64,000 bases of DNA. Source: Halorubrum sp. BOL3-1. Its GTDB lineage: Archaea > Halobacteriota > Halobacteria > Halobacteriales > Haloferacaceae. This document shows positions 30,275-60,543 of this stretch, in pieces. Below the pieces are notes generated by a model. The model made no database searches. It saw only the letters and a list, made by a program, of their open reading frames with translations, and was not told where the DNA came from. Position numbers and translations under genes: made by a program. The stretch is taken from the NCBI RefSeq assembly GCF_004114375.1, contig NZ_CP034692.1, positions 744,001 to 808,000 of the forward strand, read 5' to 3'. Every line of letters starts with the position of its first letter. The stretch's first letter is position 1.

Positions 30275-31526
30275 GATGGGGCTTTCGCGTGGACTCCCGT
30301 TCTGGCCGCCATCGGCGGCGGGCGAATACTCGCCGTTCACGTTCAACGTCCCGCGATTCAGGTGCACGTTTACGGGTGCGCCTCCGCCCGACGACTTTCG
30401 CGCCGAGCGGAGATACTTCAGCCCAATATTCTTCGCCGCGTTGTAGTCCGCGTGGGGTGAGTACCCACACTTCCGGCACTCGAACACGTCCTGCCCGTCC
30501 GAAGTCGGCCGGTTGTTCTCATGGGTAAATCCGCACTCGGAGCACCGTTGAGTGGTATAGGTGGGACCCACTTGTTCGACCGAGATACCGACTACTTCGC
30601 ATTTGTACTCGACATACTCGAACAGGCGTCGGAACGCCCACGCGTGGAACTTCTTCGCGTTGGGCATCCGCTCACGAATCCCAGTCGGGTTCTCGAACGC
30701 GATCACGTCACAGCCGGACTCGACGGCCTCGGAGACGAGTTCCTTCGAGACCGTATGGAAAAAGTGGTCGTAGCGATCCGTCTCAGTACGTCCGACCGAC
30801 TGGATAGTTTCGTGGGCGGCCCGCGTTCCACGTTGGTAGAGCGACCCGCGTCGTCTCTCGAACTCGCGGTGCCAATGGTTCAACTCCGCCCCGTTCCAGA
30901 ACTCGCCTGTCGAAGTGACGGCGACGTTTTCGATGCCGAGGTCAACGCCGAGGACTGTGCTGTGCCCGTCGTTGCCGTCGTCGGTAGTCTCGGACTCCAC
31001 GTCCGCCTTTGTTCGGACGTGAAGGTAGAATTCGCCGTCGCGGTAGTGTAGTTCCCCGCCGGTCACTTCGTAGTCGTCGTTGAATAGGTACTTCGAGTGG
31101 GGCGTCTCGCGGCTCTCGTCGGGAAGAACGTATTCGGCCGTGATGCGGTCCTTCGACGGTCGAGAGTGTCGCGTGATCGTCGTTGAACGTCGCACATCGC
31201 TTGTCGTAGACGAGCGTCGGCGCTGTAAAGTGCGGCTTTCCCGCATAGTTACCTTGCTTCCAGCGAGCGATAACGCTCTGGACGGCGTCGGCTGCCCTGT
31301 TGCGAGCGTTCTGGACGAGGTTCGCTTAGAGTCGCGTTTCGGCCCGCACTTCGTCGTAGGTTTCGCGTTGAAGTTCGGCTTTACTCGTGGTCTTGTACTC
31401 GCCTTGCCACGCGTGGTCAACGACGTAGTTGGCGCCCCACAGGAACTCGGAGATGGTTTCGTGGAGGAGGTCGGCGTCGCTGTCGGTCACGTTGAGTTTG
31501 ACGGGAACGGTACGACGTACCTCCAT
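30251..31526 (-). pseudogene. TnpB (IS605 OrfB) RNA-guided nuclease, inactivated
   Basis: The start MEVRRTVPVKLNVTDSDADLLHETI is at 31526. An in-frame TAA at 31326-31328 follows VRAETRL, where related proteins read on ([14 protein letters not shown] follows in the same frame). Further on, one extra base near 31145-31151 shifts the frame before AEYVLPDES. After that the RuvC-like nuclease is intact: [11 protein letters not shown] (first Asp), FENPTG region Glu, the zinc finger CSECGFTHENNRP ... CRKCGY, and HADYNAAKNI (last Asp). So one stop and one frameshift kill an otherwise complete ~420-residue TnpB. Confidence 0.88.
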
Positions 31527-34962: not shown

Positions 34963-36543
34963 GTGTCCCGCCTGTCGAACCTTCCGAACCCCTTCCGCGC
35001 GCTCATCCTCTATATCGGGTTCACCCTCGCGCGGGCCGGACTGATCGACCGCCACCGCGTGGTCCGGACCACCGACCTCGCGTGGCCGCGGATCGTCACG
35101 GGAATCGCGCGGATGTCGAAGAACGCGGTCGACGTCGCGATGGTCGGCGTCGCGGTGGGCACGAGCGCCGTCGCCGGCGTCGGGTTCGCGGGTCCCTACT
35201 GGGGACTCGCGTTCGCGTTCGGCGGCGGCGTCGCCGGCGGCACCATCGCCCTCGTCTCCCAGCGGTTCAGCGCCGAGGCGTTCGTCGAACTCGGGGACGC
35301 GGTCCGGTCGAGCGTCCTCCTCGCGGTCGCGATCACCGTCCCGGTCAGCGCGGCGTTCTGGACGCACGCGCCGGCGTTCATCGACGTCCTGAGCAGCAAC
35401 GAGCGAGCGATCGCCTACGGCGCCGACTACCTCCGCGTGGTCGGTCTCGGCGTCCCGTTCGCCGCGCTCAACCTCGTCGGCAGCCGCGTGCTGGTCGGCT
35501 GCGACGACGCCTACACCGCGATGCAGGTGCGGGCGGGCGGCGCGGTCGCGAACATCGTCCTCAGCGCGCTGTTCATATTCGGCTTCGGCTGGGGCGTCGA
35601 GGGGGCCGCGACCGGCACCGTCCTCTCGAACGTCCTCGCGGTCGCGGGCTTCACGCTCGGTCTCGTCCGCGGGAGCGCCCCGCTGATCGGGGAGTTCCCG
35701 GTCGAGATCGACCCGACGGGCACGTACGTGAACCCAGACATGCTCCGTGACCTCGTCGAGATCGGCGTGCCCGTCGGCGCGCGCAACCTCGTGTGGACGG
35801 CCGCGGAGTTCCCAATGCTCGCCATCCTCGACGTGTTCGGTGAGAACACCGTTGCGGCGTTCGTCATCGCCCGCCGCATCTGGGGGATCATGAACGCCCC
35901 CGGCTGGGGGTTCGGCCTCGCCTCCTCCAGCCTGGTCGGCCAGGAACTCGGCGTCGAACGCCCCGACGAGGCGGAGGCGTACGCCCGCGACATCATCCGC
36001 TTCTCGGCCGCGACGTACGCCGTCTCCGCGGTGCTGATCGCCGTCTTCGCGACCCAAATCGTCTCGCTGTTCGCCCAGTCGCCGAACAGCCCGGAGATAC
36101 CGATCGCCGTGAACCTCGTGTACGCGGCCTGCGCGGCCGTGATCTTTCAGGGCGTCTCCGGCGGAGCGGCCGGCCCGCTCGACGCCGCCGGCGACACGAA
36201 AATACCGTTCGCGAGCCAGTTCCTCGGGATGTTCTGCGTGTCGATCCCGCTCGCGTACGTGGGCGCTCACGACGCGACGCCGGGGATAACGGTTCCCGAA
36301 ATCCTGACCGTCCCGGCGGTAGAGGTCCCGCTCGTCGGGGTCACGATACAGGCGACGGAGATCCCGTTCGTCGGGTTCACGGTCCCGGAGGTCGCGCTCC
36401 CCGCAATCGGGCTGTGGGGGCTGTACCTCGCCTTCATGGCCGAGACGACGATCCCGGCGACGATCAACTACCTGCGCTTCCGCTCGGGCAAGTGGAAGAA
36501 GATTAGCGAGGCGTACCGCCCCGAGCAGACCGCGGACGACTGA
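34963..36543 (+). CDS. MATE-family efflux transporter
   Basis: 526 residues from a GTG at 34963 (VSRLSNLPNPFRALILYIGF). Two six-segment halves are seen. WPRIVTGIARMSKNAVDVAMVG begins the first MATE repeat and VEIGVPVGARNLVWTAAEFPMLAILDVFG the second. Near residues 440-485 a Pro/Val-rich insert replaces the usual short loop between the last segments (EILTVPAVEVPLVGVTIQ, then IPFVGFTVPEVALPAIG); it looks like repeated short strands exposed outside. MATE proteins export cationic or hydrophobic compounds by Na+ or H+ antiport. A CTTTAG box is about 33 bases upstream. Confidence 0.88.
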   Translation: MSRLSNLPNPFRALILYIGFTLARAGLIDRHRVVRTTDLAWPRIVTGIARMSKNAVDVAMVGVAVGTSAVAGVGFAGPYWGLAFAFGGGVAGGTIALVSQRFSAEAFVELGDAVRSSVLLAVAITVPVSAAFWTHAPAFIDVLSSNERAIAYGADYLRVVGLGVPFAALNLVGSRVLVGCDDAYTAMQVRAGGAVANIVLSALFIFGFGWGVEGAATGTVLSNVLAVAGFTLGLVRGSAPLIGEFPVEIDPTGTYVNPDMLRDLVEIGVPVGARNLVWTAAEFPMLAILDVFGENTVAAFVIARRIWGIMNAPGWGFGLASSSLVGQELGVERPDEAEAYARDIIRFSAATYAVSAVLIAVFATQIVSLFAQSPNSPEIPIAVNLVYAACAAVIFQGVSGGAAGPLDAAGDTKIPFASQFLGMFCVSIPLAYVGAHDATPGITVPEILTVPAVEVPLVGVTIQATEIPFVGFTVPEVALPAIGLWGLYLAFMAETTIPATINYLRFRSGKWKKISEAYRPEQTADD

Positions 36544-37100
36544 GTCGCGACGGTTCGGATTTGCCGGGCTTCGTTGAACTCCTATCTTCCAGATGTATTC
36601 TCGTCCGGAGCAGCCAGTCAGTGAAGAGTGTTTAGAGGAGAGTTATTTTGGAGAGAGAGTGAGAGATATAAACGGAGTTGCTGCTGGCGCGTTGATCACT
36701 CTCGAAGCCCCAGCCGCGAGGCGGGGAGACGCTCGGTGCGGTCCTCAGCCGCTCGCTTCGCTCGCTCCTTGCGGTCCTGCCGTCGGTTCTCTCCGCCTCG
36801 CGGCTGCCCGTTCAAATTCCACCCGAGCGCAACCGCAGCCTCACACCTCCCCAGCCTCGTCGCTGGCGGCCTTCGCTCCGCTCCGGCCCCCAGCGACTCC
36901 CTCGCACGCGCTCCTCGCACCCCGCGGGCGCTCGGAGGCGCGCGCCGCCACACTGATCAGGCAGATCGACCACTACATCATCTGTACTGGCCGGTTCGAC
37001 CGGTTATCCTTCTCAAATTGACTGTACAAGATACGCGTCCTGTGTTGATCAAAACCGCTGAAACACATTGCGGGCTGACAATTTCCATAGTATCGTTCGG
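36544..37100. other. 557-bp gene-free region holding repeat copy C
   Basis: Its left part is purine- and AT-rich (GAGAGAGAGTGAGAGATATAAACGG region, described in parts: 36650-36675). The middle is a copy of the dispersed structured repeat on the minus strand (36700-36952). The right part (36953-37100) is AT-richer and shows no gene. Open frames across it are low-complexity Arg/Ser/Pro translations with no coding signature. Confidence 0.7.
36700..36952 (-). repeat. Dispersed structured repeat, copy C
   Basis: Read on the minus strand it has the same order as copies A and B. Hairpin I lies at 36904-36945 (outer 7-bp stem CGCGCGC/GCACGCG-type with a G-U pair, inner GCGCCC/GGGTGC). Hairpin II has an 8-bp stem (GTCGCTGG/CCAGCGAC, 36859-36897). 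The linker GAGGCTGGGGAGGTGTGAGG follows. Terminal hairpin III contains a perfect 14-bp pair CAGCCGCGAGGCGG/CCGCCTCGCGGCTG (36711-36724 with 36793-36806), enlarged by ~65 extra bases relative to the other copies. It ends GCTGGGGCTTCGA. Confidence 0.75.
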
Positions 37101-38924
37101 CTACTTCTCGTCGACGTGTCTAACCTCGCTCGCGACCCCCCGAGTCGACACGACCATCTCCGGGCCGGACATCTCCGCGCGACCGACCGCGAACGCCTTC
37201 GGCCCCTCGATCGCGACCTCGTCGCCGACGCGGATGTCGTCGTCCGCGTCGACGACGCCGGGCGCGAGCACGGAGCCGTGCGGCACGAACCCGTCGATCT
37301 CGACCCGTTTCGTCGGCGCGTCGCTCGCGACCCAGCGTCGCGCGCCGGCGAGGGTGAAAGAGAGGGTGCCGTACTGGGGGACCATCGTCGCCAGCTGCTC
37401 GCCCGGCTCGCCCTCGCGGCCGGCGTCCGAATCGTCGCCCCACACCTGGAGCTTGGGATACCGACCGGTGGTCTTGATCCCGTCGCCGTCGCCCGCGCTC
37501 CCGTCCGCCGCGCCGCCGCCGAAGAGGTCGTCGCCAGCGCCGTCACCGAGCAGGTAGTCCGCGAGGGCCTTCACCGTGTTGTGCTCGCGCTCGCGCTTGC
37601 TGTACGCCGGCTCGCCCTGTAAGGCGGCGTTCAGCTCGCTGAGCGACTCGTCGGTGGTCGGGTGGTCGACGCAGGTGTACTCGAACTCGGCGTCGACCTC
37701 GGGGTTGCGTTCGACGCGCTCGCAGATCTCGCGGTAGCCGTCCTCCGGGACGTGCGCGACGACCCGGGAGTAGTCGTTGCGCTCCAGATACCGGCGGAGG
37801 ACCTCGGCGACGAACTCGATCTCGTCTTCGCTCCAGTCGCCGGTGACGACCGCGTCGTAGTGTTGGGCGGGGTAGGTCGTCTCCAGTTCCTGCGGGACCA
37901 CCCCGATAGGCGAGGTCATCGAGACGGTGTGGCCGCGCCACTTGATCGCGTCGTGGAACTGTCGGTGGCTCTGGGAGTCGCTGTACGGTTTCGTCGCCGA
38001 GCAGGGCACCAACACGAGCGGCTGGTCGGAAAAGCCGTTCCGGTACCGGCTCGTGACGCGGTCCGCGAACCGGCGGATCTCGACGCGGTCGAGCGTCTCG
38101 GCGCTCGCCGCCGTCACCTCCGCGTCGCGCATGAGCGGCGTCCGCTCCTCCAGATAGGCCCACTGGTCGTCGAACTCGCGAAACGCGGCCGTGAGCCACC
38201 CCTCGTGGCGCGCCTGGCCCTCGACGTAGTCCCGGAGGCGACCGCTCCGGATCCGCTCGCGGACCCGGCGGAGTTCGGCGCGGAGCGCGTTGACGTTGTG
38301 GTCGGCGCAGTCGGCGCGCGTGAACTCGCTCCGGGGATTCGCGCAGGCCGGGCAGGCGCACGGCAGCTCGTCGAGGTCTTCGAGGAAGTGTTCCGCGTCG
38401 GCGGTGAGGTACATCCCCTGTGTCCCTTTCGTCCGGGCGAGCGTCTCGTCGACGAGGTCGACTCCGGCGTACGCGAGGAGCGCGGCGTTTCGCGGCGTCG
38501 CGACGCCGGAGAGTCCGAACGCTGCGTCCGGCGGCAGCGCCGCCTTCGCCCGAACGATCGCGTCCCGGAACGCCTCGCCGTGCCCGACGAACCCCTTCGC
38601 GTCCGACAGGAGGTACGCGTCGGCGCCGAGGTCGCGCGCGCCCTCGCTGTCGACGACCGCCGCGGAGGGGAACGCCGCGTCGGGGTGGTCGACCGCGAAC
38701 GACTCGCGCACCTCGTCGCGCGTGCCGGCCGGGAACGACCGGTGCGGGAACACCGTCAGCGCGGTCTCGTCGCCGTCGGGCACCTCGCGGTCGCCGGCCC
38801 ACAGGCTCCCGGCGTCGTCGAGGAACGGGTCCGCGATCGCCGGCGTCGTGACGGGGTCGGCGAGGCGGACCTCCCCGAGGCGGGCGGCGCCGTCGCGCTC
38901 GTGGACCTCGAAGTAGTCGGTCAT
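37101..38924 (-). CDS. arcS: Archaeosine synthase, alpha chain (ArcS)
   Basis: 607 residues from MTDYFEVHERDGAARLGEV (ATG at 38924). It is a TGT-like paralogue that converts the preQ0 base already in tRNA position 15 to archaeosine. An N-terminal TGT-like barrel lacks the catalytic Asp pair of the true transglycosylase; a zinc cluster CACPACANPRSEF ... CADH is near residues 195-215. The ArcS-specific motif LVPCSATKPYSDSQSHRQFH is near 325-344. The PUA domain closes the protein (VEIDGFVPHGSVLAPGVVDAD, DEVAIEGPKAFAVGRAEMSG). A Gly/Asp-rich insert (about 475-505) is likely an exposed loop. Confidence 0.92.
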   Translation of the reverse strand: MTDYFEVHERDGAARLGEVRLADPVTTPAIADPFLDDAGSLWAGDREVPDGDETALTVFPHRSFPAGTRDEVRESFAVDHPDAAFPSAAVVDSEGARDLGADAYLLSDAKGFVGHGEAFRDAIVRAKAALPPDAAFGLSGVATPRNAALLAYAGVDLVDETLARTKGTQGMYLTADAEHFLEDLDELPCACPACANPRSEFTRADCADHNVNALRAELRRVRERIRSGRLRDYVEGQARHEGWLTAAFREFDDQWAYLEERTPLMRDAEVTAASAETLDRVEIRRFADRVTSRYRNGFSDQPLVLVPCSATKPYSDSQSHRQFHDAIKWRGHTVSMTSPIGVVPQELETTYPAQHYDAVVTGDWSEDEIEFVAEVLRRYLERNDYSRVVAHVPEDGYREICERVERNPEVDAEFEYTCVDHPTTDESLSELNAALQGEPAYSKREREHNTVKALADYLLGDGAGDDLFGGGAADGSAGDGDGIKTTGRYPKLQVWGDDSDAGREGEPGEQLATMVPQYGTLSFTLAGARRWVASDAPTKRVEIDGFVPHGSVLAPGVVDADDDIRVGDEVAIEGPKAFAVGRAEMSGPEMVVSTRGVASEVRHVDEK

Positions 38925-40952: not shown

Positions 40953-41140
40953 AACGAGGCGGTGGCGCGTGCCGGCGAGCGGCCGACAGGCCGCGAGTCG
41001 CACGCGCGAGGGAGCGGTGAGCGCTCGAAGAGCGCGAGCCGCGAGGCTGGGGAGGTGTGGGGTGCTGTGCGGAGCGGTGGGGGGCGGGACTCGAAGGGGC
41101 GACAGCGAGCGTCTGTCCGCCTCGCGGCTGGGGCTTCGAT
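40953..41140 (+). repeat. Dispersed structured repeat, copy B
   Basis: 188 bases. Hairpin I: outer GCGCGTGC/GCACGCGC (40965-40972 with 41000-41007), then facing GA/GA, then GCGGCC/GGCCGC (40979-40984 with 40989-40994) around GACA. Hairpin II: GCGG/CCGC and GCGCTC/GAGCGC (41014-41042) with a GAA loop. The linker GAGGCTGGGGAGGTGTGGGG follows. Terminal hairpin III: TCGAAG/CTTCGA (41091-41096 with 41134-41139), with an inner GACAG/CTGTC stem and the G-rich GGGC and GGGG strands. Copy A differs in stems I and II by changes that keep pairing. Confidence 0.8.
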
Positions 41141-60234: not shown

Positions 60235-60452
60235 AACGAGGCGGTGGCGCGTGCCTCCGAGCGCCCAACAGGGCGCGAGGAGCACGCGCGAGGGAGTCGC
60301 GAGCGGGCGGGCGACCGAAGGGAGCCCCGAGCGAGCGACGAGGCTGGGGAGGCGTGAGGTGCCGTGCGGTCGGGTGGGACTCGAAGGAGCAGTCGCCGGC
60401 GCTGCGCGCCGGCTGCCAGAGACGCGTCGCGTCCTCGCGGCTGGGGCTTCGG
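60235..60452 (+). repeat. Dispersed structured repeat, copy A
   Basis: 218 bases. Hairpin I: GCGCGTGC/GCACGCGC (60247-60254 with 60282-60289), facing GA/GA, then GCGCCC/GGGCGC (60261-60266 with 60271-60276) around AACA. Hairpin II: GTCGC/GCGAC (60296-60300 with 60335-60339). The linker is GAGGCTGGGGAGGCGTGAGG. Terminal hairpin III: TCGAAG/CTTCGG (60381-60386 with 60447-60452), with an inner GCCGGCGC/GCGCCGGC stem and AGTCGC facing GCGGCT through a G-U pair. It shares order, linkers and ends with copies B and C. Confidence 0.8.
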
Positions 60453-60490
60453 CGGTCTCGATTGTGCCGCGATCAGTTGCGTAGTATAGA

Positions 60491-60505
60491 GCGGCTGGGG
60501 CTTCG
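60491..60505 (+). repeat. Extra copy of the repeat's terminal motif
   Basis: GCGGCTGGGGCTTCG is repeated exactly from 60437-60451. Only the 3' arm of hairpin III is present here, which suggests a partial duplication or a remnant of a second repeat unit. Confidence 0.65.
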
Positions 60506-60543
60506 ACAGTCCCAGTCGTATCACCGATTCCGCAGACCGATTC

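Follow-up and report, generated by a model that had tools for sequence, protein, structure and literature searches.

The locus at positions 36,700 to 36,952 of a 64,000-nucleotide stretch of the Halorubrum sp. BOL3-1 genome (the window) raises the question of what kind of element it carries. It holds copy C of a palindromic repeat, of which copies A and B lie further along the window. A preliminary description proposed that copy C has an enlarged terminal hairpin, whose apex is a variable module on a constant base, as in riboswitch-like or recombination-hotspot elements.

The core of the element is a non-coding, intergenic DNA of about 250 bp made of three hairpins and a near-invariant linker (Table 1). 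On the plus strand, it reads as a CGAAG-CCC-CAGCC arm, a tip, the returning arm GGCTG-CCC-CTTCG-AGTCCCRCC, a C-rich spacer, the linker, hairpin II, CTCCCTCG and hairpin III, and it mostly finishes in CCACCGCA after hairpin III. Two copies (L041 and L030) finish in an extra GGGAGGCGCG...GCCGCCGGC palindrome and not in the usual CCACCGCA. Copy C is flanked by the gene of a MATE-type transporter (34963-36543) and by the minus-strand gene of a TGT/PUA-domain protein (37101-38924).

Table 1. Positions in the window of the three copies of the element and of the parts of copy C.
Feature	Positions	Strand	Evidence
Copy C, whole core element (three hairpins and linker)	36703..36950	+	nhmmer with a 35-copy profile, 178 bits; BLAST of the region
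Hairpin I of copy C	36711..36806	+	Arms 36711-36729 / 36788-36806; inverted repeat I1; covariation over 32 copies; length 103
Apex of hairpin I of copy C, variable, common 'alpha' type (TGCGGTCCTC...TTGCGGTCCT)	36730..36787	+	Direct repeat D1; covarying inner pairs
Linker of copy C, near-invariant, CCTCACACCTCCCCAGCCTCGTCG	36839..36862	+	126 genome matches, reversed control 0
Hairpin II of copy C (GTCGCTGG...CCAGCGAC)	36859..36897	+	Compensatory changes in 5/6 pairs (helix 7)
Hairpin III of copy C (GCACGCGC...GCGCGCGC), with its own variable tip	36904..36947	+	Compensatory changes in 9/16 pairs (helix 8)
Copy A, same element, hairpin I cut to 38 nt	40960..41140	-	nhmmer; sequence; length list
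Copy B, one upstream unit (54 bp) and core, hairpin I tip replaced by X3	60242..60508	-	nhmmer; sequence; X3 elsewhere in the genome; unit length

The element is present in many copies in the genome. A BLAST search with the region of copy C returned at least 41 matches (40 of 183 candidates scored), all on contig C3, which carries the window and represents 3.37 Mb of the 3.67-Mb genome. The linker pattern CCTCACRCCTCCCCAGCCTCGTCG has 126 matches with up to three mismatches, and its reversed form has none; the 100 matches listed are all on C3. The stretches around these 100 were fetched, the 26 further matches not being included, and searched with the profile, from which five partial copies had been dropped. 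This search gave 137 hits including split copies, 52 of them full length, and 114 places with a recognisable linker. The spacing of these 114 anchors along the chromosome shows no regularity (CV of 1.48). The widest gap between them, in this set drawn from 100 of the 126 linker matches, is 380 kb (G000:C3, about 2.93-3.31 Mb), and it is perhaps acquired DNA, with copies outside this set that may lie in it.

The perfect 14-bp arm announced for copy C is present: CAGCCGCGAGGCGG (36711-36724) pairs with CCGCCTCGCGGCTG (36793-36806) across 68 nt, and the pairing reaches 19 nt at 95% identity. The structure called hairpin III in the preliminary description thus stands, but it is hairpin I in the numbering used here. 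Its apex is internally repetitive (CGCTCGGTGCGGTCCT / CGCTCCTTGCGGTCCT, 88%), and in an alignment of 32 copies the inner apex pairs covary (columns 46-50 with 88-92, and 61-66 with 71-76).

The hairpin is not enlarged. Its length could be measured in 84 of the 114 anchored copies, the other 30 being left out, and was taken separately in copy C because the closing motif has diverged there. The 84 values fall at 21-82 nt (17 copies), 95-112 nt (55 copies) and 150-214 nt (12 copies). Copy C measures 103 nt from GAAG to CCCG, which is the most frequent single length (17 copies), so that it is a typical full-length member of the family. It is not the odd one out for its tip either, since this type (TGCGSTCCTC...TGCGGTSCTTRCGTCG) is the common form and is found again in Haloparvum (G014) loci and in one Halobaculum plasmid locus. 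The ordinary copy is therefore C, and A and B are reduced or substituted forms. The apical stems reported for them exist (GACAG/CTGTC and GCCGGCGC/GCGCCGGC), but the apex of copy A is not unrelated to the others: the 5' arm (CGCGAGGCGGACAGACGCTCGCTG) of the long form is still present in it, and copy A thus reads as a deletion derivative. The tip of copy B is a module, X3, which consists of GCCGGCGC-GCA-GCGCCGGC. The apex variability was to be taken as local damage if most genomes showed the same apex; this is partly the case, in that a common apex exists and A and B depart from it.

In its general form, the idea of a variable tip on a constant base is supported, since small palindromes recur across copies and across hairpins and the tip is inverted in four of 114 copies. 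The long class of hairpin I contains about 57 additional bp, which often form two small hairpins (X1, e.g., GAGACGCC-GAA-GGCGTCTC...). X3 (GCAGCCGGCGCGCAGCGCCGGC) is the hairpin I tip in copy B and in others; the copy at 1261877 has it between its hairpins II and III. Of the 13 places of X3 in the genome, ten are within fetched elements or immediately next to them, and three are outside the fetched stretches; for the X1 core, five of eight places are in elements, and the other three are one-mismatch matches outside the fetched stretches. When the strand of the tip motif is read in the 114 copies, 45 have it in the same orientation, four only in the opposite one and 65 in neither, against a background of 0 in 224 windows. 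The four inverted hairpin I tips are at linker positions 1873748, 2219650, 2639997 and 2794478 (G000:C3). Integron attC sites also have a conserved hairpin base and a variable terminal structure, and are used as folded single-stranded DNA. The element resembles them in its constant base and variable tip, and differs from them in that no cassette array was seen here.

The element is not restricted to this strain, and some haloarchaea carry more than 100 linker matches per genome. In a survey of the family, the linker was found in 34 of 119 genomes, including all 12 of the genus (own genome included), with 15-179 matches each. In a survey of the class with a shorter, 18-nt pattern, it was found in 80 of 232 genomes and 23 of 72 genera, although lone matches to this pattern may be chance or partial elements; the 30 genomes of the genus all have it, with 14-194 matches each. 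Among the 80 matches listed, Halorubrum accounts for the majority of the named linker loci. The phage collection gave no match and the plasmid collection two weak ones.

The surroundings of the linker were inspected by eye at 22 loci and at 18 others. Four of the latter are on viral contigs and unrelated; they were dropped, no such hairpins being seen around them. In these loci, the base of hairpin I is less widespread than the linker outside the genus. It is seen in Halosimplex (GAAAGCCC...CCCTTTCA), in two of seven Halorussus loci (GAAGCCC...CCCTTCA), in Halosegnis and in Haloparvum; by eye it is absent from the G030 loci and the other five Halorussus loci. Some loci of other genera combine a similar hairpin base and linker with a different tip. 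Another tip type (GACATATC or GGGATATC...GATAG or similar) occurs in Halosimplex, two Halorussus and two Haloparvum loci; this second type is common to several families (L155 and L156 in G014, L256 and L283 in Halorussus, L239 and L262 in Halosimplex). In another family of the order, a linker variant (CCACACGCCTCCCCAGCC) is repeated four times in tandem with a 29-bp spacing (G190:C1:117144-117248).

A full-text literature search, with subscription journals mostly outside its reach, returned no description of the element. Rfam gave no match at the gathering threshold over the whole window, and none up to an E-value of 1 for the region of copy C (36550-37050). The repeat is apparently undescribed so far.

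The comparison with related genomes shows places with the element and places without it. Seven relatives show both genes that flank copy C (L165, L166, L167, L169, L173, L175 and L178), and none has an element between them; at four other loci, an element lies beside the right-hand gene of this place. The empty place favours the arrival of copy C after those lineages parted, and the extra DNA found there in several relatives makes loss or replacement possible. The nearest relative is 93% identical in the flanking gene. Two alignments gave no insertion junction with clean ends at copy C, the relatives being too diverged between the genes, and neither a target duplication nor a transposase was found for the element.

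The relative G154 has 137 linker matches. Among 30 sampled loci of this genome, 15 have the element at the same place and in the same orientation as an own copy (L221 loosely), which suggests that many copies are old and stationary. The flanks of another, L219, are 73 bp apart in the own genome, without element, and 14 loci could not be assigned, either for want of a fetched own counterpart or because a single flank matched. The orthologue test was made on the 73 own and 28 G154 elements with all landmarks and gave seven strict pairs, which is few. In these pairs, the identities of hairpins I, II and III are 0.69, 0.58 and 0.78, compared to 0.64, 0.64 and 0.72 in random G154-own pairs; that of the linker is 0.84 versus 0.83, and the flanks are at 0.73 and 0.81. 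On these seven pairs, the place persists and the hairpin sequence is hardly closer than that of random copies.

G154 also shows a 33-kb inversion. Its segment C1:294321-327672 is parallel to the own C3:2893398-2918810, and the outer flanks (283797-293840 and 328041-340366) are antiparallel to the own genome and on opposite sides. Copies of the element in opposite orientation lie at the two ends in G154 (293834-294215, minus, and 327732-328029, plus); the own genome has a copy at one junction (2893183-2893315) and none at the other (about 2918810). The plain reading is that the inversion occurred by recombination between inverted copies, with the loss of one copy. The suggestion of a recombination hotspot thus gains support, from one case in one region. 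More generally, recombination between copies would cause both the turnover and the inversion.

The best reading of these results, to which we give a probability a little above one half (about 0.53), is that the element is a non-autonomous, high-copy DNA repeat, palindromic and of the REP/PATE type, which would be mobile, acts as folded DNA, keeps its linker and hairpin bases and exchanges its tips, and which does not require a Y1 transposase. The linker and the bases would presumably be kept because a putative protein recognises them during copying or maintenance. The hairpin tips would be free positions in which smaller palindromes can insert, and copies may swap tip sequence through ectopic recombination or through the inversion of a hairpin.

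The nearest parallel is the PATE/SMR-A pair of Haloquadratum walsbyi, whose PATEs have no terminal inverted repeats and carry SMR-A inserts of about 110 bp in their near-terminal palindromes (PMC3119063). PATEs are, like the present element, haloarchaeal, non-coding, palindromic and present in many copies, with small palindromic repeats within larger palindromes (PMC3119063). Unlike them, the present element has three hairpins around a conserved linker, and its long class is larger by about 57 bp, compared to the 110 bp or so of an SMR-A. A 489-bp PATE with antisense transcription is described in Hrr. lacusprofundi and its virus (PMC10544981). The element could thus be a PATE moved by IS605-type transposases, with SMR-A-like repeats inserted in its palindromes. 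The tip modules X1-X3 behave like SMR-A in being palindromic and sited in hairpin tips; the genome contains 15 TnpB-type genes, and the string AAGCCCC is common to the base of the element and to three of the six tnpB tails that were compared. However, the three hairpins are internal and not near-terminal palindromes as in PATEs, and four genomes of the genus (G013, G057, G071 and G089) have no match to the Y1 transposase domain (PF01797, E<=0.001) while having 123, 125, 112 and 79 linker matches. An association with tnpB was also considered and rejected: the profile, run on 12 of the 15 tnpB loci, found one neighbouring element, which is the chance level (about 1.4 by estimate). We consider this origin unlikely. 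One of the 15 TnpB-type (PF07282) matches of the genome is a gene domain in the window (30425-30634, minus strand).

REPs measure 20-40 bp and carry a GTAG or CGTC tag (PMC3733652). Like the REP/BIME repeats that go with RAYT, the present element is intergenic, palindromic, in high copy number and found in both orientations; unlike a REP, it measures about 250 bp, and no GTAG/CGTC tag was noticed by eye in a 40-copy alignment. PF01797 is matched in eight of the 12 genomes of the genus and not in the other four, where linker copies are abundant (79-125), so that IS200/RAYT is excluded as a requirement. By eye, the ends of the element show no common inverted repeat of the kind that IS and MITEs have.

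The structure of the element is supported by covariation. In 32 copies, 94.4% of the cells are paired and 31 of 55 pairs have changed on both sides. The double-changed cells number 195, compared to 60.2 (sd 6.1) in shuffles, and none of 500 shuffles reaches 195, although the paralogues are related and this comparison is not a probability. When the partners are slid by one to three columns, the pairing falls to 29-48%. Such strong covariation would also be expected of a structured RNA, possibly a 3'-UTR element that would protect mRNA 3' ends or bring about termination and would have been copied to a large number of transcription units. The RNA folding energies are in agreement with this alternative, as they are low on both strands (mean z of -3.7 and -4.2 over 52 copies); for the same reason, folding by itself does not identify the strand or the type of molecule. 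Taken singly, copy C folds more weakly (RNA z of -2.7 and -1.4), and as DNA it exceeds shuffles only modestly (z of -2.1 and -1.0).

The composition of the stems argues against RNA. G-U cells are at 1-2%: in the structures computed without G-U, 13 G-U and 20 A-C of 1352 cells (26 pairs) or 19 G-U and 38 A-C of 1849 cells (36 pairs), and in a structure that permits G-U, 30 of 1756 cells. The 114 cores contain 172 perfect hairpins whose arms measure 6 bp or more; 123 of these are closed by loops of 3 nt, not tetraloops, compared to 14 of about 68 in mononucleotide shuffles. Triloops and few G-U pairs suit DNA better than RNA in terms of hairpin stability. Together, these two features point to DNA hairpins rather than to a riboswitch, and DNA would be the active form. 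The label "riboswitch-like" is moreover at odds with the lack of an Rfam match for copy C and with the many paralogues, mostly 3' of a gene. The excess of A-C over G-U in the stems (38 versus 19, without G-U pairs) is a mild hint of a minus-strand RNA. This candidate was set aside: the RNAalifold structure of the minus strand gives 336 A-C versus 39 G-U, and it is selected for such counts, so that they were not used as proof.

The position of the element relative to genes bears on the same question. With genes called by a purpose-made codon-bias caller and not taken from a standard annotation, none of 110 profile hits overlaps a predicted gene. In 75 of 107 cases the 5' neighbour is oriented towards the element, as it is in 21 of 26 (G154) and 13 of 16 (G057) copies with a recognised upstream unit. 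This preference for the 3' side of genes would suit an RNA, but the downstream gene has a random orientation (56 versus 51) and the hairpins of orthologous copies resemble each other little more than do those of copies paired at random. An RNA element therefore appears improbable.

Upstream of many cores lie one to eight short units (CCGAAGCCCCAGCCGCTCGG..., 51-69 bp in most cases); copy C has no recognisable one. The unit lengths are multiples of three for 56 of 58 distinct own units and 22 of 23 in relatives, or for six of eight distinct own lengths when counted by length class. The GAA frame contains 11 stops in 1165 codons; the remaining two plus frames contain 33 and 46, and the minus frames 31, 10 and 40. 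In 38 of 69 cases the first unit shares the frame of the stop codon that precedes it, compared to 17 and 14 for the two alternative frames. When the count is restricted to genes with 100 or more codons and to gaps not exceeding 150 nt, 31 of 47 arrays are in frame (9 and 7 in the others; p of about 5e-6), and gaps above 150 nt show no phase bias (5/6/6). In relatives the phases are 19/5/11, a bias carried by G154 (13/3/5), while G057 has none (5/2/6). The units share ancestry, and the length and phase counts are therefore not independent. When translated, units give sequences such as EAPVARYDAVTAENTTA that have the look of former coding sequence (e.g., at the L020 and L017 loci).

These counts raise the possibility that the element is a two-part 3' gene trailer, with stop-phased in-frame units that are, or once were, translated by read-through into an acidic tail, followed by DNA-hairpin modules that stop the ribosome or the polymerase. 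This we regard as quite doubtful. A coding array under selection was rejected, since third codon positions vary no more than first and second ones and one of the minus frames is as open as the GAA frame. A tblastn search of plasmids with the peptide of an array unit found nothing. Rickettsia palindromic elements insert inside genes and keep a reading frame; the present repeats are likewise palindromic with a kept frame, but the arrays follow stop codons. A plus-strand promoter was also considered, because TTTATAAAT in the upstream units resembles a TATA box that would start an RNA at hairpin I. It was dropped, as this string belongs to the units of about 57-69 bp, where in many it is an in-frame Y-K codon run, and is missing from the 51-bp units. 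If the trailer reading were true, it would describe a class-wide, so far unnamed gene-end system, and the frame signal, if functional, would indicate an unknown layer at the ends of archaeal genes.

It is hardly probable that the palindromes are kept by mutation alone, through template switching and gene conversion without recognition or mobility: many double changes turn a G-C into a C-G pair, which template switching or hairpin inversion would produce, as they would the four inverted tips, but such a process fails to explain the near-invariant linker, which is unpaired in the consensus and found in 23 of 72 genera, the copy number and the absence from predicted genes.

As a palindromic repeat that probably acts as folded DNA, the element is made notable by the presence of its linker in all 30 surveyed genomes of the genus, while copy C matches no Rfam family and no description could be found. 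Its paralogues offer material for studying how palindromes persist, how they gain or swap their tips, how they drive inversions and what recognises them.
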